From Arthrinium phaeospermum (taxonomy: Eukaryota; Ascomycota; Sordariomycetes; Amphisphaeriales; Apiosporaceae): a DNA stretch of 64,000 nucleotides. Where the stretch lies: contig QYRS01000001.1 in the NCBI GenBank assembly GCA_006503535.1, forward strand, positions 1,426,001 through 1,490,000, written 5' to 3'. Positions 3,040 to 62,187 of this stretch are shown here, one piece after another; within the stretch, counting starts at the first letter, position 1, and the number at the start of each line of letters is the position of its first letter. The position numbers and the translations under genes are program-made. The notes under the pieces were generated by a model, which saw nothing but the letters and a program-made list of their open reading frames with translations, had not been told where the DNA came from and did no database searches.

Positions 3040-5125
3040 TCAGTAAACCAAGCCTTCGGAACCGGGCTGGTCCCACGTAATGAACTTGCCCAGCATGTAA
3101 CCAACGCCGAGACGGTAGAACTTCCGGCCCGCCCCCATCCCAGCGGTCGACTTTAGGTCAGCCATGACGATGAGTACGTAATGTTTTGCCTCCCGCGTGA
3201 CAACATTCTTGGTTCTCGCGACGACAACGCACTGCGCCCGGCCGCCGCCATCCGAAGCGCTACGGTCCATGTCGAACAAGATGCGCGACTCGCCGACCTG
3301 GGACCCGCGCAGATCGTAATCCCGCGCCACCACCGCCAGGGTAGGAACCGTCCTCTGACCCTCCACGTCGCGGGGGAACGTCGCCGAGCGATCCGGCGGG
3401 GCGTCGCTGGTCTGCTGCCCCAGCCGGTGCCGGGACCAAGGCGGCCGGATGTCGCGCGTCTCCCACTCCATCTCCTCGAGGAAGGGCGGCTCGAGCAGGT
3501 AATCGATGGGCCCCGCGTACGCCATCCAGGACCACTTGGGCACCGCCGTACGGCGCTCGACGGGGAACACGATGGCCTGCATGTTGGGCTTGTCGTCCTG
3601 CTCCACGCCCCGGCGCCAAAGTAGGCTGCGGTGGAACAGTCCACCGTCAAGGCCATCGTCGAAGATGCCGAAGCCGCCGTCGGTCCGATAGGCCTTGCGC
3701 AGCCGGTTCTCCAGCCCGAGAATGGCGACGGCGCGGTCTTCCAGCCGCGTGAACTGCAGGCGGGAGTACTGCTTGTAGAGGTCTTGAAAGTACGCAATCT
3801 TCATACCCCGACGCCCGTCCATGGCCTTCTGGGGGAATCGGGGGTCCCCAAGGAAGGCGGCAAGATTACTAGGAGAGGAGAAGTTAGGGGAATGATCGCC
3901 AGCATACTTTCGGGTGTGCGTGGTCAGGATACTTACTTCTGCATACGGGCTAGGGTCTCGCATCGAATCCCCTCTCCACACTCAAAGTACATCTGCGTCT
4001 CGGTAAAGTACACAGTCCGTCGGGCCAAGGCACGCTCCTGCAACACCCAGCCGCGCTTGTTCAGTGGACTCTCAAGCACGTCCTGGCTGAAGTCGTCAAT
4101 GGGCTCGCACACGTAGAAGGGCGTCTCGGCCGCGGAGCGTGCAAAGGTGACAAAGTCGCGACGGCGGCGGCGTTCGCCAAGGAAGCCGTCGTGCATGCCG
4201 GTGGCGCGGCTGGCGGCGAGGACGCAGTAGGCGCCACTGAAGACATCCTCCATGCGGCTCGCCTCCTCGTTGAAGTCGCCGTCCTTGCCCTGGATGATGC
4301 AGATGGAGTCGATCCAGATATAACGAACACCAAGCGCCCTGGTGACAATCACGGCGTGTTGGAAGGTCGCGGGCATCTTATGGAAGGGTATGGATTGCTT
4401 GAACGACTCGACATCATGACCGTCGCCATTGACATCCGTCCGCCAAGAGCAGAAGGGTGGATGAAGGTTCTTCTCACCCCAGGGATGCGACAAGGCCACG
4501 TACTTCTGGTCCTGCGGCAAAGATTCCGAAGTCTCAATGAGGCACAGGGAAGGCTTCCCCTGGAGACCAACATCAATCAGCCGGGTCGGAACAGCCGTCG
4601 ATTGATTGCCACGGCATCGGTCATGTTTAGCGTCGCAGTCCTGCAGCCAAAGGCGGGCGATCTGGAAGATCATCTCACTGTTTCCTGGGAACAGCTGCGG
4701 GAACCCTAGCTGAACTGGTACAGGCGGCCTAGAGTCTTTGGTCGGCCCGTGTCAGATCTCTTCACTGAACGGCAAGATCAATACATACCTGGGCTCCGCA
4801 AAAATGTCAAGACTGGCTGTGGTGGTCCACCGACAATCCTCAAAGTGGATTGCTCGCGAATGAGTGCCAGTTTAGTCGTTCTGGCCATATCGTGCTTGGT
4901 ACATACACCCAGGAGCATGCGACAAAAATCGCATTTGCCATAGTCTTGTTGCAACTGAGAGGGGGCCACCTCAAACGAGAATCCTCCAACCCAGAAGTCC
5001 AAGTCCAGGCAGCGGTTGCACAATTTCGGGGGTGTAGAGTTCGGCGGCATGAGCTTATCGTGCCCAAGAGAGCTCGCAGCCAGTTGAGCAAAGTCATTAT
5101 CCACTGGGTATAACCAGTCCTTGAG
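3040..5125 (-). CDS. HET (heterokaryon incompatibility) domain protein, probably the C-terminal half of a kinase-HET fusion
   Basis: Exons 5125-4789, 4705-3937 and 3868-3040 (introns 4706-4788 and 3869-3936, CTAAC-type branch, all phases consistent) encode 644 residues with no internal break. The first exon carries the usual HET-protein Cys pairs (LCNRC, CDFC). The HET core follows: Y-V-A-L-S-H-P-W-G, then I-W-I-D-S-I-C-I-I-Q with the E-A-S-R-M block and V-L-A-A-S-R-A, and finally the third motif (N-K-R-G-W-V-L-Q-E-R-A-L-A-R-R). HET domains are TIR-related and trigger regulated cell death when hyphae of different genotype fuse. The first exon has no ATG near its start. Its frame is open back to a CAG acceptor at 5126, so it is most simply spliced in phase 0 to the microexon chain and the kinase exons upstream. 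A separate start at the internal ATG near 5050 is the alternative. Confidence 0.88.
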
Positions 5126-5677
5126 CTGAATAAAGTCATGTTCAGCGAGGGCATGTGAACAGAGTGACTATATGAGTAACTTACAGGCTGGCGAAAACTT
5201 AGTACCCAGCTGTCGTTTGTCTAAAACATGAGGTTTTCCTCATTGGGGAATGGTTGTTGCTCACCGGCTGATGTGCATGGTCAGTAAACGTATCAAGCGA
5301 TGATCGAAATCAGTGGACTCACAAGCTATGTGGGCGATGTCAGAACTGAAGTAAATGGCCTTTGTCACTTGCACTTGTTGCATCGTCAAGTCTGTCAGAG
5401 GGGAGTCTTACCGCCTAGAGCCATTAGCATGATCCCATAAAAAAGGTTGTAGGGTCATCATGGACTTACATACTACCAAATGTAGTGACATTATGTCAGT
5501 TGTTTCAGAGAAAAATAGGTTGGGGGCAAGGAGTGAACTCACATCCTGCATGGCCACGCAAGGCTCTTATTAGTCCAGGTCAATGAATGGAGTTAACTTT
5601 GGTTATGAGCCTACAGTCTATCAGCTGTCAGTTATTCCGGCCACTCAGGAGCCATGGTTCAGCGTGAGGAGACTTAC
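5126..5677 (-). other. Array of seven 3-nt microexons in eight short introns, linking kinase and HET modules
   Basis: Between the kinase exon (ending 5678, phase 0) and the first HET exon (starting 5125, phase 0), the minus strand reads as eight consecutive introns of 60, 69, 70, 55, 86, 55, 77 and 59 nt. They are separated by single-codon exons at 5617-5615 (ACT), 5545-5543 (GAT), 5472-5470 (TAT), 5414-5412 (GCG), 5325-5323 (CTT), 5267-5265 (CCG) and 5187-5185 (CCT). Donors are GTAAGT, GTAGGC, GTGAGT, GTAAGT, GTAAGA, GTGAGT, GTGAGC and GTAAGT. All acceptors are YAG, and a CTGAC, CTAAT or TACTAAG-like branch site precedes them (the last intron has a weaker CTGAA). The linker adds T-D-Y-A-L-P-P and keeps the frame exactly. 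The first microexon has the weakest donor and might be skipped. Splicing is inferred; no transcript was seen. Confidence 0.72.
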
Positions 5678-7562
5678 TCTGATCGGAGCCGGATGGAGTG
5701 GCACTGCAAGCGGTTCTGGGTTGTCCCCGGATGAGATATCTTGCACTTGTCGCTTTGCAGCTCCTATACCAGGGGAAAGTAATGATGGCCGATCTTTGGG
5801 TAGCGAGGGCGGCGGTATGTCGCCTCTTTCTGTTCGAGTCAGTAGGTATGCCGGATTCCGATTCACCTTTTCCGCAATTGCAGATAGACCCTGAAAAAGC
5901 CCTTCCGCCGTGGCCCTAAACCTTCCCGGCCCTACGTCGCCGGTCATCGGTGGCTGGAAGAACCGTAAAGTAGGAACCTCTGTTGAACCGGGTCGATATG
6001 TCTTTCCGCGTAAAGGTGGAAGATCAACCACGAGCAGCTTCTGTTGGGCCAGTTTCAGTAAGTCGCCTATGGCGCAGTCTGAGCGGCACTCTGGATCATG
6101 AGTCTGAAGGTGATGCATCCAAAGCTGGACCACTGGATGTACTGTAGCTCCTGCGTCGGAGCCGTGCTGTGGGAGCTCATAATAGGGACAGGCGTTGCGT
6201 GCGTTTCCTTGCAGGTCCTGATAGAATCTTTCCAGCCTATCATTCCCATACAACAGCCAGATGACAAACTCGAAGATGATACAGCCCATGGACCAAGTGT
6301 CGTAGAGACGAGAGAGTCCTCCGCTAGTAGAACTTTCAGCTTCCGGGGGTTGGTATTGAATCGTACCGTATCTTGTGGTTGTAATGAAGTCCCGATTCGT
6401 CGTCTTTAGAACATGCTTCTTCGCAAGGCCCATGTCGCCGATCTTCAGAGTCCCGAGGACTTTGTCGGGCTCAAGAAACCTAAGTAGGTTCTCAGGTTTC
6501 AAGTCACCATGGCGGATCGAAGAGTCTTGACCATGTTCTCTGGCGTCACTATCATCCATAGGTGTTTCAGCTGCTGATGGGTCCATAACGCTGCTCTCGA
6601 AATTATGAAGTTGGTCAAGTGCACCAGCAGACCGATGAGTTGTTCCAGAGCTTCCTTGATGAGATTTACCTCTGGGGATTGCGTCGGTGTTGCTATCCAA
6701 AGGTCCCTCAGACTATTGCCGGTAGCCCATGGAAACATGAAGTATCGACTGTGCTGTCTTCGGATGGCAGCCAGACACCGGATGATGTGAGGGTGCTCCA
6801 CTTGGTTGATCGAGGCCAAGGCCCTTGCCTCCCGTTCCCATGCCTCATTGGTTTCCAAGTCGTCGCCAGCCCTGTTGACCCGAATTTCCTTGATGGCAAC
6901 CTGGTGCGCATTAGAATGACAATGAATAAGGGTTGAGTGGATGCACTTACTGTGTTAATGGTGTGTTCCGTGTGTTCTGAGTGGATAGTCACTTTGTGTA
7001 CCCAGCTAAAAGCTCCTTCCTTAATATTCGCATCTTTCTCAGTGAAAGGCAGGATTCCTTTCTCGTTGAGGTTGTAATTGTATTGTGCTCGTGTGAAGAC
7101 GGGTGCCAGGTGCTGCCATCTGTACATGTGTAGGAACTCCTGTGCTTTCAATCTGGTCCAAATGTCTTCCGGAAAGATATGATAATGTTCATCGTCGCTC
7201 AGCTGTGATACGGACAGTCTCTCGTCATGGAAATTGTGATACCAAAAATGATGCATGGCATTTCTGGCGTCTTCCTGACCCATACCACACCTGATGAGCG
7301 AAAGAAAGACATTTTTAGAACCAGTCGTGATCCATTGAACAAGTTCTGTGCAAAACTGATCCTCGTCTGGTGGCAGCCTGTCTAGTTGGAGTTCTTTCCT
7401 TATCACCTCCTCGGTGACTAGGGAAGAACCAGTTTGATGTGGCAAAAAATCTCGGCTGGGGATGTCAAACTGACTTGGCACTTGGCAATCGAAGATTCGA
7501 TCGGAAAGACCGGAGCGTCGCCGCTGTGATGGTGGAGGCGGTCTATACAAAGTATTGGCCAT
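5678..7562 (-). CDS. Fungal serine/threonine protein kinase-like module (one 1-nt frameshift), N-terminal half of a probable kinase-HET fusion
   Basis: Exon 1 (7562-6951, 204 residues) holds an uncharacterised N-terminal module ending in N-Y-N-L-N-E-K-G-I-L-P-F, then a glycine-loop-like G-A-F-S-W-V. A 50-nt intron (6901-6950) leads in phase 0 to V-A-I-K (Lys208). Exon 2 (6900-5678) carries H-G-D-L-K-P-E-N (6503-6511 holds H-G-D), the Mg loop as D-M-G rather than D-F-G (6428-6436), and P-P-E in place of A-P-E, followed by D-T-W-S-M-G. H-G-D instead of H-R-D recurs in the second kinase of this window, so it looks family-specific. The frame shifts by 1 nt between about 6632 and 6612, in the helix before the catalytic loop. 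Exon 2 is 1223 nt, one short of a multiple of 3, so a single missing base explains it. The exon ends in phase 0 at a GTAAGT donor leading to the microexon array. Confidence 0.8.
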
Positions 7563-9303: not shown

Positions 9304-11811
9304 ATGGCGGCTGCATCACCGGTTAATGACCAATCGGATCCAAATCTGAGTCATCTGGCAGTTACTCCACAACAACACGGGATCGTAGCACGCGGCTTGC
9401 AGACAGTGAGCCCAAAGTGTCGTCGCCAGCGCCGAATGCCACATGCCCGTGTTTCATGCAAATGACATCCACTCAGAACACAGCCTTTCCAGGAAACCGA
9501 CGAACCACATATTCCCTGACGGACTTGCGGAGATTCCTCGTACTGCTCCTGACACAATCATTGGCGGCGACAACAGCCAATGCTGTGAAGTTACCGATAA
9601 GGACCTGATCCCGTACTTCAGCTCGGACGAAGGCGAAAGAAATTATGGGGTGGGTCCTCGGAAATCGACGATAGTGATGTGGACTTAGCACCATCTACAA
9701 CATCCACATCTCCCAAATCGAAAGTTTCACACCCAATCCCCGTTCACCACAGCCAGACAGGCGACTGCACTCTGGATACTAGTGGTCCTAGTACCAACCC
9801 ACGGCTACACAAAGCGGTGTCGATGTAAGAGCTTCTCCACTTCCAATACCTTATTGATGCTAACAACCACGTGCTCAAGGGCTTCCTCGGTGTATCACCA
9901 ACTCTACCAGATGGTCATGGTGTCCCGGACGGCCATGAAGGCCTTGATCCAGCTGAATATGCGCAAGAGCCCCCCCTGCCACCACCACCTACAGTGGTAT
10001 CCGATGCGGGAAACCAACAGTTCAAGGGGCAGAACCGTATCAATAGCAACTCCAATTCATCTTGTTGGTTACCGCAGAAGACTCTAGAGGATCGGCTATT
10101 CGACGCTAGGCATCGCGCAACGCCCTCACTCCGAAAACTGGAGGGGCTTCATCCCAAAGAAGCAGCTAGACGACATCGTCACCGAGGAGTCCGTTATCCG
10201 GGAACTACAGGCGTGCCTTTCCAATCAAATCGGCTCGAAGAGATTCGAGAGTATGCCCAATGCGTCTGTCGTGATACGGAGTCCAGGCAGCCCGACGGCA
10301 GGATCAAGCTGAAGTCTTTCAAGTCGATATTCGCCCTTCTAATAATGTTCAGGAAGCCAGCTGAGATTCTTGACTTTTCTGAAGGAGGATGTCAGTGACA
10401 TTGATCTGCCTCTAGTCAGTCATGGCGGCACCTACCACATTGGCCGACGAAACCGCCTGTCAAGCCCGGAGAGAGAAAACGACTCTACTTGGGTGCTTTC
10501 TCAAGTGGAGCAGGATTGAGAGCGAAAGCTTTCTCAACTACAGTGGATGATGATCTCCGTTCTTCAGGGAAAGTCAGTACAATGATGTCCAGCACTACGA
10601 ACTCCACGAAAATCACATTCTGCCATGGGTCGGTCGTCGGAGGAATTCCCACCCGACGTTTCTCTCCTTGCCACCTACCTGCACCGTGGAAAGTACCACA
10701 TGATCTTCTACCGAGCACAAGGTGATCTTTTGAAGTATTGGAAGGCTGTCAACCCGAAACCCGACTTCAATTCGGACACGATAATGTGGGATGGCAAAGC
10801 AATGCGAGGGTATCGCAGGCGGCCTCGTGCAGCTTCACAGACATTTTACAACCTCTAAGCCGGGGAGGTCGACGACAAGCCAAAGAGTCATCAGAGTACC
10901 AAGCGAGGGAGTACGCAGACACGAGGAATGGCCAAGTTCCATTTGCAAGTAAGACGCAGTATGTCCTAGGCGGAAGAAAACCAGGGCATACGCCCAATCC
11001 AGGAGAGCGTAAAAAGTCCCGGGACGACTCGGACCCTGGTTTGCATAAGCTGGGAGGACATTGGCAATTTGGGAGGCATGGGGATTTGAAGCCGGAGAAT
11101 ATCCTTTGGTTCAAAGGGGGAGAGGACGGCCGTGGCACACTGAAGATAGCAGATTTTGGCCAAGCCGAACTGCACGAGTGGCATTGCAAGACCCGGAAGC
11201 GGTCTGAAGTGGCTGACACCATGGCCTACAGAGCTCCAGAGTGCCATTTGATGGCAAGAGATTTCGTCAATCGTCTGACGTGTGGTCTCTGGGTTGTCTA
11301 TTCTTGGTCTTTGTGGCCTGGACGCTCGGAGGCGAAGAACTGGTAGCAAGTTTGCCAGCGCTCGATCAGCCTTGGACCAATACTGGGGAATATTATCGGA
11401 TACGTTCTTCCAAATTGATCTTTTGACAGATGACACTCAAGCGTGGAGGGTCATGGTTAAACCAGCTGTTGTTCAGGTACGTACCCCCTTTGAACCCGAC
11501 TTTCACACAAGAATCATTCACTCACAGAACCTCGTCCACGCCTGCAGTTCATTCTCCAATTGCACTTGCATCCTAAGTGTTCCGACTATATTCACGACCT
11601 CTTGGATCTGATTTACACCAAGATGCTCGTCATCGAGTCCGAGTCGTCGGAACGACGCATGGCATGCATCCATGTCCACCGAGAACTGAAGAGAATGCGC
11701 GAGAGGTGCTGCGTCGATGCGGACTATGCCACTGCTGGGAACCCGTGGACAGCGCCCCGCGACATGCCGGTGCCGTCTGCCCTGTACAGGTTCGGCTCCC
11801 TAACGCAATGA
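9304..11811 (+). pseudogene. Decayed serine/threonine protein kinase, same family as the kinase at 5678-7562
   Basis: The ATG at 9304 opens a plausible N-terminus (MAAASPVNDQ...), and scattered frames to 10640 retain family-like segments. These include H-Y-E-L-H-E-N-H-I-L-P-W at about 10591-10630, matching the module end in the upstream kinase. After that the text jumps to S-L-L-A-T-Y-L-H-R-G-K-Y-H-M-I-F-Y-R-A (about 10665-10715). The glycine loop, VAxK lysine and alphaC helix are therefore absent, an internal deletion of about 60 codons by comparison. The catalytic half survives: H-G-D-L-K-P-E-N-I-L and I-A-D-F-G-Q-A in the frame of 10738-11346, then S-S-D-V-W-S-L-G in another frame (11241-11426), and a C-terminal lobe in a third (11560-11811, stop at 11809-11811). 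Multiple stops and frame changes plus the missing ATP-binding elements make an active kinase very unlikely. Confidence 0.75.
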
Positions 11812-22789: not shown

Positions 22790-25700
22790 CGAAGACGAGA
22801 ACACAGGAAAACCAAAAAGATACAGTGTCTCACTGGCGATGTAGCTGCGCCCTGTATCACAGTTCTCCCCCTTTCTCTGTTCTTGTATCTGTTCCACAGT
22901 TGCTTCCAGGTGACTCCCAACTTCCTTGGCAGCGGGGCATCGCAAATACCCCCTCCCCTCCTGTGATAGTCGGATCTGCCCCATGCAAGAGAAGCATTTC
23001 GCCATCTCCAGTCCTTCCGGTGTAGCGTTCATCGCTGCAACTCCAAGAGACGTCAATGTCGTGGTTTGGTTTTACCGTAAGACATAATTGACTGGTGCGC
23101 CACCATCCAGAATATAATGGAGAAGCTTCGTCGGGTAGATTCCGTTCTTGATGACGCACTTCAATGCCTTTGCGACAAACACATCAGGCTTTCGAACAGC
23201 TGTGCAGCATCCCAAAAGTCCGTCAAGAGATTCTCCCGGAAGGGATGGCCGGCAACGGTTCGAATCAAGCGTGCACTCGTGTAACCTGATGCAGTGGAAG
23301 TGCTCTCGTCTCCTAGCTTTGGCGGTTCTATGCCTTCACCGGAGGGTAACCGAGATCAAATATTCCGTAGGGCTTCCAGATGTCAATGCCTCTTGAGACT
23401 CGAGAGCAGCTCTGCCAACAGTATGCCATTGATGTGTATTTCCATAGAACTGGGAGCAGATTTGCAAATCCCTCGATGGCTTTGGCTTCCAGCAGCAATG
23501 TGAGGATTGCCTCCCATCCTCCATTGGAGACGGCAATATAATTCAGCTTCTCGTTGTCTTCCAACTCCGTTACAAGCATTTCCAATCCAGCCGCTGAGCC
23601 GGCCCGAGGCTGCTGCTTTCAAAACTTTGACTTGGCTTTCGCAGCTCGGATCAGAAAATCTGACAACAAGTCTTCTAGAGCAACTGTTTCGTTTGCCCGT
23701 GCCGCGTCGAGTATGAAATCTTCTTCAGCGAGATCGGAGGGTGAGTCTGATAGAGCGTTATCGTATCTCTGTGAAAATGCTCCATCGTCGCGCATCCTTC
23801 GCGATAAGAAACCTCCTTCAGCATATGGCAATCGGGAATGGTACATGTCCAGGACGATCGTGATGTTTCTCATGGGCAGCCCGGTCTTCGAGGCTCCCGA
23901 AGCCATACCGCCCAAAACGACATGAGATACCGCATAAAACGGACGGGGACCATGCCGTTTGTGCAAACTGATTGGGGCCGTTTGTGCAACTGATTGGGGT
24001 TATTTTCCGTGTTGGTCTTAACATCCTTGGATGCGGGATCCGAGAAATAACCCTATGAACCTGGACAGATGTCTCCGATATCCTCAACGGGTCTAGATGA
24101 GCCCACTCTCTCCTTTAAAAGGTTAGCATATGTATGTCTATTGGTAAAATATCTGAGCATGTGGGTGAAGGAACCGCATACCTTGATCAAGATGGAAATT
24201 CGGACCTGTAGCATATGGTGTTCTGTCTTCAAGACTTGCTTCAGTCGTGGGATATCACTGACTGATGTGTCATCTTCCTCACCCTCTCTCGTTCGAAGCG
24301 ATTTCAGCGAATCCAGGCTGCTGATAAGACTGCTCAAGTGGCCTTGTGATTCGTTTTCAATGATTGCGTTCGTTATCAGTTCACAGCATGTTCGGGCAGT
24401 ATAATTGTGAAATACATATGCCCCCCGGAGTATGCTATCTTTTACGCATTCTTCGGACAGTTCTGTCCTTTGAACGTCCATCAGGAGGTAGGCAAGGCAG
24501 ACCTTTGCTAAACTTGTTGTAGCATCTGTTGATGAGATATGGCCGGCAATGACAGGACTGGTGATGTACCTGTTTTACTATCATTAGCAGGCTGAATCAG
24601 GACGGGTAACTGTATAGTCAAGTAGAAATACTCACTCCTTAACTGTAAAGTGTACGAACTGGACGTAATTATCGTTGACCTCTATAATCGGGCCACAGAG
24701 TCTGAGAAGATCGATTTGCCCATGACAAGTACCTTTTCGCTTATAGTTCCCTCTCATTGCTAGGGCGTGGCTGAGTTCCTGGATGCTCATGGGGGTTGGT
24801 GAGCAGGCTGCCATCCAAGGATTTGTCTAGCCTTGATCCTGCTTGACGGGGTAAGATGATTCACGCGAGAGAGAACTCGCTTGTAGCTGTTCGAATGGTA
24901 TCAGTACTTTTCATACGAGACATCTCGAATCATTCCAGTCTTACGCTTCATCCAACGAGTCCGGTAACAATTGCGTTTCCTCATAGATTTCATCAAGTGA
25001 TGTGATATATTGGATACCTTCCAATATTATTCTGGCGTAGAGGAACATTCCTGTAATTTCTTAGCATCTGGTAAAACCACATGAATATCATTTGGGGCGG
25101 CAGGAACCATTATACCTTTAGCTTTAGACGGCAATGAAGAGAGTCGCTTTCGGATTTCCACCTGGGTGTCTTGCTCAAAATGACGAACAAGAAACCATCT
25201 GTCAACCCAGCTTGTGACGAAGGTTTGTATGCTCATTGCGTTGTGATGGTCCACTCGGATGGCCTTGGCGTCTTTCTGAAGTACTTCGTTCAGGTCAGAT
25301 GCTGGTCGACTGCTAATCAGAATCCTTAGGTTATTGCAGCCTTGCACCATGGGGATGAGCTCCTTCAGTAGCCTACTTCTGTCGGTCTCCCCTATTTCGT
25401 CTAGGCCGTCGATGACGAAGAACGAAGGCCCCGCTGCATCCACAACCTTTTGCAATATCCGAACGGTGTTGGGCATATCACGGCCATAATCGCCATGAGC
25501 TTCTTCTATCATAAGCGACTGAAGATCTTCGTCCCGAGAAGCTAACTGGAAGGTTAAGGACTGTAAAACATTTATAGCCGAGGACCCTCTGCTGTCGCGG
25601 AAGCTCAAGAAAGCAAAAGCCGTTCGGCCTTGCTTCTGTGCTTGGCTCACAGCTATGCTAGACACGAATGTCTTGCCTGTCCGTTGTGTTATGTTAAATA

Positions 25701-26671
25701 AAGGTAATGTACTGGGGTTTGGTTTCACACATACCTGAGCCTGGGATGCCTTGAACCCACAAAAATGCTGAATGCCTCGTCAGACTGATCGAGCCACTTC
25801 AAGAACGTTGAATTGGCAATGAGCCACTCCCAGTGCCCTCATAGGTCCTGTCACGTAAAGTGTCTAGTGTATTGTCGTAAAATACTGGCGATATGTCCGT
25901 TTTGATGGCGTTATACTCTGGCGCCTGCGAGCTTTAGCAGAAATTCGAAGTGCTCCAGTTCCCTCTGTCGAGCAATGTGTGCCTGTTGGATGTCCTCAGT
26001 CTAACCCCATTACGTAGGAGCTGTACATGATGCTGGATCAACCGGACCACGACATCGATTTATCTTTATGGCGGCCATAGAGACTCAAAGAGACCATCCA
26101 GCCTGGAGCAGGGTCAACAGAAGGTCTAAAGGGTATATCATCTTCGAATAGATCTCACGTGTTAGCTTGAAGAACCGGAAAGCTATCAAGTAGAATTCGA
26201 GGATATCCCTGAAGAACAGAACAAGGATGTCGTTGATATGGGCATTTCCAGGAAATAACTCGGCCATGAGCTTGAATTCTGGCAAATATTGGCCGATGTC
26301 GGAAGTCGTGTTGATGATGGCATCGAAAGACGATTTAAGAACGCTGGCCCATTGTAGGAGCAACCTGATCGGCCCCAGATGAGTGCCAGAATATCCGGCT
26401 TTATCTGGACAAAGACCTCTACAGAGGAAGCGTATTCGTTAAGTCGGTTTAAGTAGGGTTCGATTTTGGAAAGATGACGAAGATGGCCCTTCTTCCTCTG
26501 TTCTGCTTGCAACTTATCCGTCGTATCATAAACCTGGTCAATCGAGGTGGTTGAAGGATCTGGTGGTAAATCGAATCGTCCCCTAGTTTCGTTTTGAAAT
26601 CTCGGATCGTATCGTCGAAGGCCTGGTGTACGGGTCAGAGAGCTCCATCGTGAGCTACACATGTGTCCCAT
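22790..26671 (-). pseudogene. NLR-like protein: helical N-domain, NACHT, winged helix, C2H2 fingers, ankyrin-like region; frameshifted
   Basis: The start is at ATG 26671. The N-terminal domain (Q-V-Y-D-T-T-D-K-L-Q-A-E-Q, V-E-V-F-V-Q-I-K-P-D-I-L-A-L-I-W-G) is the one common in fungal NACHT proteins, with a frame change near 26365 before L-L-L-Q-W-A-S-V-L-K-S-S. The NACHT P-loop G-I-P-G-S-G-K-T-F is split by an intron (25677-25734). Walker B is F-F-V-I-D-G-L-D-E-I (about 25390-25420) and sensor R is I-L-I-S-S-R-P (about 25310). Then come a winged-helix-like block (F-V-H-F-T-V-K-E near 24630-24660, intron, Y-I-T-S-P-V) and a helical block (24481-24053). C2H2-like text with G-F-G-S-L-E-D-R-A-A-H-E-K-H-H (about 23860-23910) follows. 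Ankyrin-like pieces (L-H-Y-I-L-D-G-G-A, L-L-H-G-A-D-P-T-I) lie at 23100-22960. At least five frame changes. Fungal NLR-like proteins mediate incompatibility and other immune-like responses. The 3' end is approximate. Confidence 0.72.
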
Positions 26672-57721: not shown

Positions 57722-60700
57722 TTAAGCACCGGTGGCACTGCCCTGTCCGCTATGCGAGGTTTGGCTCTGCACCGGATAGCCCTCACCAGTTGTTGGCCCT
57801 TGTATCCCGCCGCCTTGCTGCAAATTGCTGGAGCGATAGATTGAGTGTCCCTGATGCTGCTGCTGCTGCTGCTGTTGTTGTGCCACTTGAGGGCTTTGCC
57901 ACTGGGGGTTAGGCATCTGTGCTTGTCCCTGATGCAGGCCCGCAGCAGGCGGGTAGCCTTGATTCATTCCAGGGCCAGAACTGCCCCAACTCTGGCCATA
58001 GCCCTGCTGGCTAGTCGATTGGTAGAGCCTCGGTTGATTCCCTGGGTATGAGTAGCCCTGGCCCTGCGGACGTGCTTGCATGTTGTACATAGCACCAGGT
58101 CCGGTCTGGCCGGGCGGCTGCCCATGTTGTCGGTAAATCTGAGGGCCCATGGAGGATGTATGGCCCGCCGTATACGCACTATCGCTACCGCTCATCTCAT
58201 CCTGGCTCACAGGCGGATGGGATGCATCAGCTGACTGAACTCCCTGGGACGGATAGCGTGGTCCTTCGTAGGGGGTATCGAAGCTGGTGGATAGGTGTCG
58301 GGCCGGGTAGCGACTGGCGCTGAAGCCCGCTGCGTTGGACGGTGTGGAAGGGTAGCCAGGCTCCATGGTCTGGTACAGCGTTTGCGTCTTGGCGCGCAGG
58401 CCATAATCGATGGCGCGCCGGTCGCCTTGGGTGCCGCGGATGTCCCCGAGATACTTAGCGAAGTCGAGGTACGCCGTCTGCACGAGCTGAAAGTGACGGA
58501 GCTCCAATGCCACAGTGATGCCAGCATCCGTTTCATCGTCCTCTTCGGGCACCCGATCGCCGTGGGCGTCGTACTCGGCCAGCGCCAACGCCGTCTGGCA
58601 TGCGTTGCGGATCTGCCGCCCGTTCCAGCGGCTGTAGACATGGGTCCGGAAGTGCTGCTCGGCAAAGTTTTCGATGGAAGAGCGGTCGTACATGATCTTG
58701 CGGCCCTGTCGGTCGAATCGATCCTGGATGAGATCCAAGTTGACCTTGAAAATCTTCTTCGTTTTCATCTCGTCTAACTCCGGGTAGTAGAGACTCATGT
58801 GAATCCGAGAGGCAAAGGCCTCGTCAAAGTCGCCGATGCGATTGGTGGTCAGGAAAAGTATACCCGTGTAGTATTCTAGTACTCGAAGAAACACTTCCAG
58901 GCATAAATTGCATCAGTAACGGCCACGGTGGAAATGTATGTGGTGACACTTGCCTGCGACCAAGCCGTTCCGTTCGAAGTCTTTGCGTTCGCGAGCTGAC
59001 AGGAAGACATCGGCCTCGTCTAGCAACAGGATGCAGCCCCAGCGGCTGGCAAGGGCAAAGTTCTTTTCCAATTCTTGTTCGACGTCACGGGCAGTGGTTC
59101 CGAGGTCGCCTAACGACAGTCAAGACCCGTCAAGATCCAGTCTGGATATCATTCGCTCAACTTACCACAGGTTATATGAAACAATGGCTTCTGGAATAGC
59201 TCTGCCACGCCCTCTATCTCAAATTTAGCTCCGTAAGTCCCTAATGCCAACGTGGTCATTGTCACTTACCGGCAGTCGTGGTTTTCCCGACGCCAGGGGC
59301 GCCATGCAGCAACATGATCAGGCCCTTGCCTGCAAAGTTTAGGTCAACAGTAGAAATTATCTCATGCGTGATTATCTTACCCTTTCCTCTGACTATGTCG
59401 GTCCGATCCACATTTACACTTGAAGCTCTTTTGCCACGAAAGTGCTGTGTCACCAGTGATTTTACCATCTCTCGGTGACCTGTCGGAAGCTCCAGGCGAT
59501 CAAATGCACCCAGCGTCGAATCTCGTGCATCTTGGTTTTCGTATCGCAGGTATGTGAGGTCGAGTTGCGCTGTATTCTGGGTTAGAAAGCATAGGCTTGA
59601 ATTTATGAGACAACAGCATGAACTTACCCCATTTTCGCATCCGCAACACAAACCCAAAGACACGATGTGTCATGACGAGGAAATCCTCGTCGTTTGGCTT
59701 GTATTCCGTCCCGAGCGACGATTTACCCAGGGGTCTAGGTGAAAGGATCAACGGAAGAGCCTGGAACCGCTCTTTAGGTACCAGTGCATCCAGGAAGTCC
59801 TTGGCCAATCTGAAGTCAATGTATGATCCCGGGGAAGTGAACGACACACTACAGCAAAGCCACGAACATGGTTCATAGTTTGCTTGGGAAACATTGTCAA
59901 TGGGCTCCACCACAGGTGCCCAATCCCTGCGCTGTTCGTCGGTCAGGGCCTCGCTGTGGTCAATAATAACCTGACTATCAATATCCTCACCCGTCTCCAG
60001 GGCAGCGCCTGTATAGTACACTGGCTGGAGATTTGTTATTTCCAACAGCATTTTTCCACGCGCCACGAGCCTGTCACGCAAGCTAACGTCTTCCGCAAGT
60101 CGTAGCGGATATATCGGCAACGAGTCGACGTTTTTGAGACCTCCAAAGGGGAAGATGGTAAACGTGACTTTGACCGGGCCAAACTCTTTGCCGTTGAAGT
60201 CAATGTAGGCACAGTGCACCTTCATTGTCTGTCTATCCTGGGCTGCCTTGGATCTTTCGTCCGTCGATTGCACACTCAAGAAATGGTTGAAAAGATCTTC
60301 TCCCAGGTGATGCGGGCTCTCAACTTGAATGACTCGGAATGCTCGTTTGCCAGCCTGATCTACAACCTCATCCCCGGGTTTGTATATATGCCAAAGATCA
60401 TGAAACAGGATCTTGCGGCATTGGTCGCTGCTGTAGTATTCGAGCTTGGGCTTTATTTCCTTGTCGAAGAAATCCATAAAACAGCGCAGGTGAAGAAGAG
60501 CTTCAATGGAATCGGACATCGATTGGGGCCTATCCGCGTTTGTAGCTTCCCCATCTAATTCAGTTCCTGATGTATGCCCCTCTGTATCTTCTTGCCTCCC
60601 TTCGTCAGCATCTCGGCGTCGTTCATGAGCCTCAATGGACAGCTTCCCGCTCTTTTTCAAGGCGTCGTAGTCCATTTCAAGATTGGCCAAATGGGCTCGT

Positions 60701-61563
60701 AGTTTTCCCTCATTGTATACAAACTCCTTGAATGGCCGAAGGAATACCATGTCTTTTTCAGGGCCGCCTTGACGATAGAATTCCCCTCTGTCAATGTCGG
60801 TCAAGGTGATGAAGACAGAGCGAAGCGCGTTCGAGTGAAACTTGACCCTTTCTGGAAGTAGCCCTCGTTCCGGATCCCAGGTCACAACGTCTCCTTCTGG
60901 GTGATTGAGAAATATGTCCTGTTGGCCAGGTGAGAAGCCCGAAGGAATGCTACTGTGGACTTGTGAGTCTAGCTCCCCTATAACAGCCACGATCGGGTTA
61001 TTTATCGACTCTTCTAAGGTTAGTCGAAGCGCGTTGGCAAATTTAGACCAGTGCATCCACCCCCAAGTTGCGGGCTTGCCTTCCAGATACGCCTTCGTGC
61101 TCATCTTCCGCGCAGCTTCCAGATCTGACGAAATCGAAGAACCGCCATTGAGTTGTCTCTCGCTGTGTAACTTCGCTCTCCGACGCCGCCGCGCACGTTG
61201 ATATTGTCCGTGGCTGAGAGTCAATTGTCCCAAGAGCCGAACCGTTTCGTCCATCACGTCCCGTACGCGTTTTCCATTGTACGAAGCATCTGAATCGTCT
61301 GAATCATAAGAGTCTGACGAATCCGAGTCGTATTTGATGTCGTTGCCCTCTTCTGGTTCCGATCGGCCCTGCAGGTTGAAGATGTTGTTGACCAGTGTGA
61401 GTTTCGCATCCAGGGCCCTCAACCGGTCGTCGAAGGCCTCCATGTCTGTGAGACTATGGGTGACTGGGGCACATGGCGACGCTGATCTGTCACTGTGACC
61501 CGTTCCGTCACTTGACTCCTGGTTTGATTCCCGCGGGGAGGAAGGTTCCGCGGTTGACGCCAT
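57722..61563 (-). CDS. AAA+ ATPase with fungal N-terminal domain and Pro/Gln-rich tail
   Basis: Six exons (61563-59628, 59569-59381, 59329-59270, 59213-59166, 59109-58954, 58893-57722), all phase 1, give 1186 residues. Residues 1-120 are acidic and Ser-rich (D-S-D-S-S-D-S-Y-D). Residues 130-640 form the large domain usually paired with this AAA module in fungi. Walker A is G-A-P-G-V-G-K-T-T-T (about 718-727), Walker B C-I-L-L-L-D-E-A-D-V-F (775-776 = D-E), sensor 1 F-L-T-T-N-R (N about 814), and the arginine-finger region F-A-S-R-I-H-M. The last 200 residues are rich in Pro, Gln, Gly and Tyr, with a polyglutamine run near 57857-57884. The fifth intron (58894-58953) has a GC donor (GCAAGT). 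Such AAA proteins resemble BCS1/ATAD3-like remodelers; the substrate is unknown. Intact. Confidence 0.9.
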
Positions 61564-62187
61564 CTCGTTGTCAAAAGCTCAGAAGCCACGGAAACACGAG
61601 GTTGTTCAGTTTGGGTGCAGTTGCGGTGCTCAGCTTCTCGTTATGTGCGGGGTAAGGAAGTTCTGGCTGATTGGGGAAAAGGCCTGGCTGGCTGCCTGGG
61701 TCTTTTGGGTTGCGAGTACGGCCGCCGCCGTGTTTGCCTTGGAGCCCAATACCACTGCAGTCGTCTCATCATTGGAAGCGAATGATAACAGCGATAGGAA
61801 AACTCTGCACTGGATGGCCATGGGATTGGCTGCGTGGCATGTAAATGCTGCATGGTGGAAGGGATGCTGAGAGCGGGGGTTGGGGGCCATAGGCGTTTTC
61901 CGGTTGCCCGTTAGGAGTGGCTAGGACAAGGTGGGTGGTAATGACCAACACACAGGCGCAGCCTTCTCGCGAGTTGTGTTTTCTTCAATGTTGCCCTCCC
62001 CGATTGTTTGGCACTTGAAGCTCAACCTTCTCGGCCTTTCGGTGCCAAAGACGATTACTGAACATATCGTGGATTATCATTGCCACCTACTACTTCACCT
62101 GTCAGATGTGGCGTTGTCAGTTGTCCTGACGTTGACACTTGAGACCACGCGAACGTTACCATTCGGCAGTATTTAGCAGGAAAAGAA
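61564..62187. promoter_or_regulatory. Divergent promoter between the AAA ATPase and the STAND-like gene
   Basis: A 624-nt spacer between two divergently transcribed genes. No clear TATA element was seen, and short open frames here (61568-61870) are not supported as genes. Confidence 0.4.

Follow-up and report, generated by a model that had tools for sequence, protein, structure and literature searches.

A chain of eight putative introns separated by 3-nt exons between kinase and HET exons in a fungus

On the minus strand of the 64,000-nt stretch of Arthrinium phaeospermum DNA analysed here (the window), the exons of a kinase gene are followed by an array of predicted short introns separated by single triplets, and then by three exons carrying a HET domain. 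The features are, in the direction of transcription:

6951..7562, minus strand: first exon of the kinase gene (MANTLYR..., from an assumed start codon), an open frame without a Pfam domain, with a phase-0 donor GTAAGT at 6950
6901..6950, minus strand: ordinary 50-nt intron of the kinase gene (GTAAGT...CTAAT...CAG)
5678..6900, minus strand: kinase exon, in two frames (N-lobe part 6900-6625; catalytic part, with HGDLKPEN, 6712-5678)
5618..5677, minus strand: intron 1 of the array, 60 nt (GTAAGT...CTGAC...TAG)
5615..5617, minus strand: microexon 1, ACT (Thr)
5546..5614, minus strand: intron 2 of the array, 69 nt (GTAGGC...CTAAT...CAG)
5543..5545, minus strand: microexon 2, GAT (Asp)
5473..5542, minus strand: intron 3 of the array, 70 nt (GTGAGT...CTGAC...TAG)
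5470..5472, minus strand: microexon 3, TAT (Tyr)
5415..5469, minus strand: intron 4 of the array, 55 nt (GTAAGT...CTAAT...TAG)
5412..5414, minus strand: microexon 4, GCG (Ala)
5326..5411, minus strand: intron 5 of the array, 86 nt (GTAAGA...CTGAC...TAG)
5323..5325, minus strand: microexon 5, CTT (Leu)
5268..5322, minus strand: intron 6 of the array, 55 nt (GTGAGT...CTGAC...CAG)
5265..5267, minus strand: microexon 6, CCG (Pro)
5188..5264, minus strand: intron 7 of the array, 77 nt (GTGAGC...CTAAG...CAG)
5185..5187, minus strand: microexon 7, CCT (Pro)
5126..5184, minus strand: intron 8 of the array, 59 nt (GTAAGT...CTGAA...CAG)
4789..5125, minus strand: HET exon 1 (LKDWLYPVDNDFAQ...), an open frame whose first in-frame ATG comes after 25 codons
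4788-4736, minus strand: first HET intron (acceptor AAG)
3937..4735, minus strand: HET exon 2, which bears the HET domain (PF06985; E 6e-28 for the HET exons taken together)
3936-3869, minus strand: last HET intron
3040..3868, minus strand: HET exon 3, ending at a stop codon; the intron before it has the same position and phase in a paralogue (C14, below)

The catalytic piece of the kinase exon matched Pfam PF00069 at 50.4 bits (E 2.7e-13), and the N-lobe piece at 27.0 bits (E 3.6e-6), under the cut-off of 31.7. Near 6,625 the kinase frame shifts by one base, with the domain lying in two frames (6694-6526, minus strand). No intron with good signals, as judged by eye, accounted for this change. 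It may reflect an error in sequencing or real damage to the gene; in the latter case, a full-length kinase-HET protein would not be made. The HET domain scored 98.5 bits against a curated cut-off of 22.5, and the HET frame is intact for 654 aa across its three exons. In the inferred product, the Pfam search detected only Pkinase and HET domains, and no NACHT-ankyrin architecture. Another kinase-like gene lies at 10726-11637 on the plus strand; it is spread over more than one frame and has 28.6% identity to the first kinase (query residues 15-201). On the minus strand, the window also contains an NLR-like gene at 25030-25779, with an NPHP3_N frame (E 3.6e-18) and a NACHT match of 25.9 bits, just below the cut-off, and adjoining frames at 57725-61578 with a fungal AAA+ lid domain and DUF7025. 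The genome as a whole yielded at least 152 HET, at least 56 NACHT and at least 173 Ank_2 matches (matches, not genes), and it appears to hold a large recognition and cell-death repertoire. At L081:2500-2960, an A+T-rich stretch, perhaps a mutated repeat, was noticed by eye in otherwise balanced sequence.

The 552 nt from 5677 to 5126 (minus strand) split without remainder into eight introns and seven triplets. When the coordinates and junctions were re-derived, they agreed with an earlier note on this DNA, which had described eight introns of 55-86 nt, spaced by exactly 3 nt and in phase 0, running from the kinase donor to the HET acceptor. The spacers were exactly 3 nt in all seven cases (ACT GAT TAT GCG CTT CCG CCT, or TDYALPP), the donors were GTRRGN in 8/8 introns, and phase 0 holds throughout, including the kinase exon before the array and the HET exon after it (from 5125). 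The further claim that each intron has its own donor and YAG acceptor, and nearly all a branch site, also stood, with YAG in 8/8 introns and a branch-like CTRAN in 8/8.

The motif YAG-N3-GTRRG occurs 21 times in the window on both strands, and seven of these occurrences form the one chain in the array. As a null model, 20,000 dinucleotide-preserving shuffles of the array's 552 nt were generated, of which 19,234 contained no such junction, 753 one, 13 two and none more; a linked pair of 3-nt-spaced junctions was seen in 0 of the 20,000. In 3,000 further shuffles, each scored at its most favourable spacing between 0 and 30 nt, the maximum was two junctions. The control set consisted of 81 stretches, taken from 79 loci of this genome and from the window outside the array; some of them overlap, they total 673,924 bases over both strands, and the three array-containing loci were excluded. 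Junctions spaced by 3 nt numbered 48 in this set, none of them forming a linked pair, and the longest chain at the other spacings from 0 to 30 nt was two. The absence of linked pairs from both the 20,000 shuffles and the 673,924 control bases bears out the earlier view that chance is a poor explanation of the array. With regard to a second array in the same genome, these 79 loci and the remainder of the window, which cover ~0.34 Mb (overlaps included) of 48.4 Mb, held no linked pair.

The branch motif played no part in defining the array. CTRAN was found 8-25 nt from the acceptor in 8/8 array introns versus 10.1% of 18,104 control YAG sites and 3 of the 48 isolated control junctions, and the stricter CTRAY in 6/8 array introns versus 4.9% of the control YAG sites, figures that are somewhat flattering in their exact values because the 8-25 range and the loose CTRAN were picked after the introns had been inspected. 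Seven of the eight introns passed the first-AG test; the exception, intron 2, has AG dinucleotides between its branch site and its acceptor, which counts against the splicing model. Furthermore, the three introns of this gene outside the array are built in the same way (50-68 nt, GTAAGT or GTATGT donors, CTAAT, CTGAC or CTAAC branch sites). Judged from these sequence signals, the array very likely consists of eight real introns.

A paralogue on another contig (C14:320188-322374; L049:1189-3375) contains Pkinase and HET in a single open frame of 728 aa, and since it holds both in one frame without the array, a fused kinase-HET gene is plausible at the array locus. When it was compared with the inferred 977-residue product, residues 38-722 aligned in one stretch at 32% identity. 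HET exon 1 resembles the paralogue from its third codon (DWLYPVDNDFA / SWQVFPDNEFA), a resemblance that begins upstream of the first HET ATG and is weak when taken alone (E 0.061). The paralogue is not simply an intronless copy, because the last HET intron (3936-3869) is common to both genes in position and phase, while the array and the first HET intron are missing from it. The conservation test that the earlier note had proposed spoke against conservation in the one relative compared, where the array is missing and the linker is one contiguous exon; with an identity of only ~32%, the missing array is no argument against splicing at the present locus. The array may represent a gain here or a loss in the paralogue. 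With default penalties, the alignment is ungapped across the seven codons, with 0 identical residues in them, and it was rejected as proof of seven-codon inclusion, being gapped just upstream and without identity in the seven columns; the linker varies too much between the two genes for the paralogue to show whether the codons are included.

On one strand at C2:443016-444740 (L032), neighbouring kinase and HET genes are unfused, which counts against fusion. The pair, at 443-445 kb of that contig, is a possible pre-fusion layout, and its HET gene had no match to the inferred product at E 1e-3. At C9:71 kb, a match considered as a third member of the family (E 0.0028) was attributed to chance because it is antisense to a long unrelated open frame. 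A kinase on C3 (~494 kb) near a HET match (~487 kb) was also set aside, the two being ~7 kb apart, and no linked pair was found in L083 (C3:486,500-492,500). Through the array, we infer that the kinase and HET parts of the locus are carried on one transcript.

We consider it probable that the locus is one kinase-HET gene, whose linker is spelled by seven 3-nt exons lying between eight ordinary short introns that are spliced in order. Fungal introns of such size are recognised across the intron, and each array intron, with its own donor, branch site and YAG, would be recognised across itself in this manner (intron definition). Most simply, intron 1 would be excised during transcription, so that the kinase exon gains one codon and the following donor becomes available, and this step would be repeated to intron 8. 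An acceptor and the donor that follows it after 3 nt could hardly be bound at once, and the splicing of the array would therefore have to be ordered. The main product would have the linker R-TDYALPP-LKDW. In agreement with the earlier proposal that the one-codon cassettes are frame-neutral, skipping any codon keeps the frame, because all the splice sites are in phase 0, and none of the seven triplets is a stop codon; thus, a minority of shorter linkers would be expected. We favour a splicing of the array that is mostly constitutive and ordered, with mostly full inclusion, since the splice signals are uniformly good. That the RNA is spliced as the array implies, the order of the steps and the dominant isoform are all inferred from the DNA.

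An extension of this reading would have the codons included or skipped independently, in a regulated manner, thereby tuning the kinase-HET linker, as has been claimed for the truffle NLR genes. Independent inclusion would allow up to 128 in-frame combinations, corresponding to 96 distinct peptides because the two prolines are alike. The phase-0 sites and the stop-free triplets would permit this, leaving out a single codon would make an intron of 128-144 nt, a size that we judge tolerable in fungi, and the truffle genes offer a precedent as far as excerpts of the literature describe them. However, the uniformly good donors and branch-like sites favour constitutive use, and the linker of the C14 paralogue is one contiguous exon, so that regulated combinatorial splicing seems possible but rather doubtful. 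It is somewhat less likely, and compatible with the splicing model, that the gene is a pseudogene in decay, whose array currently serves no purpose. The kinase frame change would be a mark of such decay, but it may be a sequencing error, and both the signals of all eight introns and the HET frame are intact.

Alternatively, the kinase and HET parts could be two genes, the kinase ending at a TGA (5645-5647) and HET starting at its own ATG, the first in frame in 4789-5125, with the array serving as HET 5' untranslated sequence or as an unspliced spacer. If intron 1 is retained, the kinase frame continues past 5678 for 10 more codons and stops at this TGA, and the unfused neighbours at C2:443-445 kb give an example of such an arrangement. 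In contrast, untranslated introns would need neither an exact 3-nt spacing nor phase 0 at both ends, the resemblance to the C14 paralogue reaches upstream of the first HET ATG (although it is weak alone), and that paralogue is fused in one frame; we therefore regard the two-gene arrangement as improbable. Very unlikely is a single intron of ~550 nt in the course of being divided by stepping-stone sites, with the triplets mostly skipped or serving as transient recursive points. Such a process would resemble recursive splicing with abutting acceptor and donor, and the 55-86-nt pieces into which it would cut the 552 nt are similar in length to the three introns outside the array. At classical recursive points, however, no nucleotides are left behind, zero-spaced YAG-GTRRG is absent from 5090-5720 on the minus strand (0, versus seven with the 3-nt spacer), and sequential splicing would keep every triplet.

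Returning to the one-gene reading, the origin of the array was approached by aligning the introns with one another and comparing the scores with those of shuffles (28 pairs); z averaged 0.30. Introns 1 and 8 formed the top pair (z 3.25, p 0.005), and 4 of the 28 pairs had p < 0.05, when 1.4 were expected, three of the four involving intron 1. This is too little likeness to claim kinship, and a common duplication of the eight introns was set aside, although some kinship is possible; without clear likeness, the array would be old or the introns would have arisen separately. No tandem repeats were found in the array, and the repeat search yielded one 14-nt pair at 93%, between intron 5 (5368-5381) and the kinase exon (5740-5753), which is probably due to chance. 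It is possible that the array arose by division of one long intron through new AG-NNN-GT sites; 3 nt is the smallest non-zero exon length that preserves the frame.

A broader proposal, which we put forward as speculative and on balance unlikely, is that serial one-codon exons arose in a kinase-HET cell-death gene independently of those in the truffle NLR genes and that stepwise splicing yields a controlled set of linkers, with 0-7 extra residues, that determines the ease with which the kinase turns on the HET domain. If the array were borne out, runs of 3-nt exons in recognition or cell-death genes of fungi would be more than a peculiarity of truffles. The array also offers a compact 552-nt substrate in which the spliceosome has to deal seven times in a row with an acceptor followed after 3 nt by a donor. 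Whether exons of this kind came about as an accident of splicing or serve to generate diversity in nonself recognition can be addressed in one amplicon. Abstracts on microexons in plants and Drosophila state that exons of very small size frequently escape annotation or are annotated wrongly, and genes with microexons could therefore be annotated as two genes or as truncated ones.

Several known systems resemble the array in part. The stepwise removal proposed here, in which each step exposes the next donor, is like recursive splicing at the ratchet points of Drosophila, but these, as described, have acceptor and donor juxtaposed within long introns, whereas the array would leave 3 nt in the mRNA at each step and has introns of 55-86 nt. 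The stwintrons of Aspergillus and Hypoxylaceae are likewise adjacent fungal U2 introns that need ordered excision; as described, a stwintron has a splice signal broken by another intron, whereas in the array no internal intron interrupts an external signal, and 8/8 introns have their own donor, branch-like site and acceptor. The micro-exon genes of schistosomes contain symmetric, frame-neutral tiny exons, mostly longer than 3 nt, and give rise to variant secreted proteins. They share with the array the serial arrangement of such exons that permits variant proteins, but they are animal genes with secreted products and mostly larger exons, while the present gene is fungal and its exons are 3 nt.

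The closest comparison is with the nank genes of the truffle Tuber melanosporum, in which codon-sized microexons were reportedly described by Iotti et al. 2012, Fungal Biol 116:261. The earlier note had known of no described fungal case of serial 3-nt exons. In this respect it did not hold, because passages of three papers (PMC3689799, PMC4986451, PMC10197012) cite the NACHT-ankyrin (nank)/NLR genes of this truffle as having alternatively spliced, codon-sized, 3-bp microexons and credit them to Iotti et al. 2012; of its interpretation, frame-neutral one-codon exons in series, with complete introns on either side and within a probable kinase-HET gene, were supported, while independent inclusion or skipping of each codon would be a possibility. 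As these passages have it, both cases concern a fungus, a self/nonself-type gene family and many serial 3-bp exons, and consecutive 3-nt exons between complete introns are present here at the sequence level (seven of seven triplets, eight introns). In contrast, the truffle genes are described there as having 'tens' of exons in the NLR sensor part, an expanded family and reported alternative splicing, whereas the present gene, known from its sequence, has seven exons in a kinase-HET linker, is the one such gene found, and does not encode a NACHT-ankyrin protein. Tuber melanosporum has two HET genes, against at least 152 HET matches in the present genome, which most likely belongs to a different lineage. 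The microexon of Trichoderma Xlr2 (PMC11121469) is described as functional in a fungus, but it is single and lies in a transcription-factor gene; the abstract of that paper (2024) states that functional microexons were previously undescribed in filamentous fungi, and its introduction calls the fungal microexon record limited, with Iotti among the references. Among the literature matches listed (title and start of abstract, with subscription journals mostly outside), none dealt with 3-nt exons in series in a gene for a HET or kinase-HET protein. Thus, serial 3-nt exons have already been credited to truffle NLR genes, and here they seem to occur in a different kind of gene, one that appears to join a kinase to HET.
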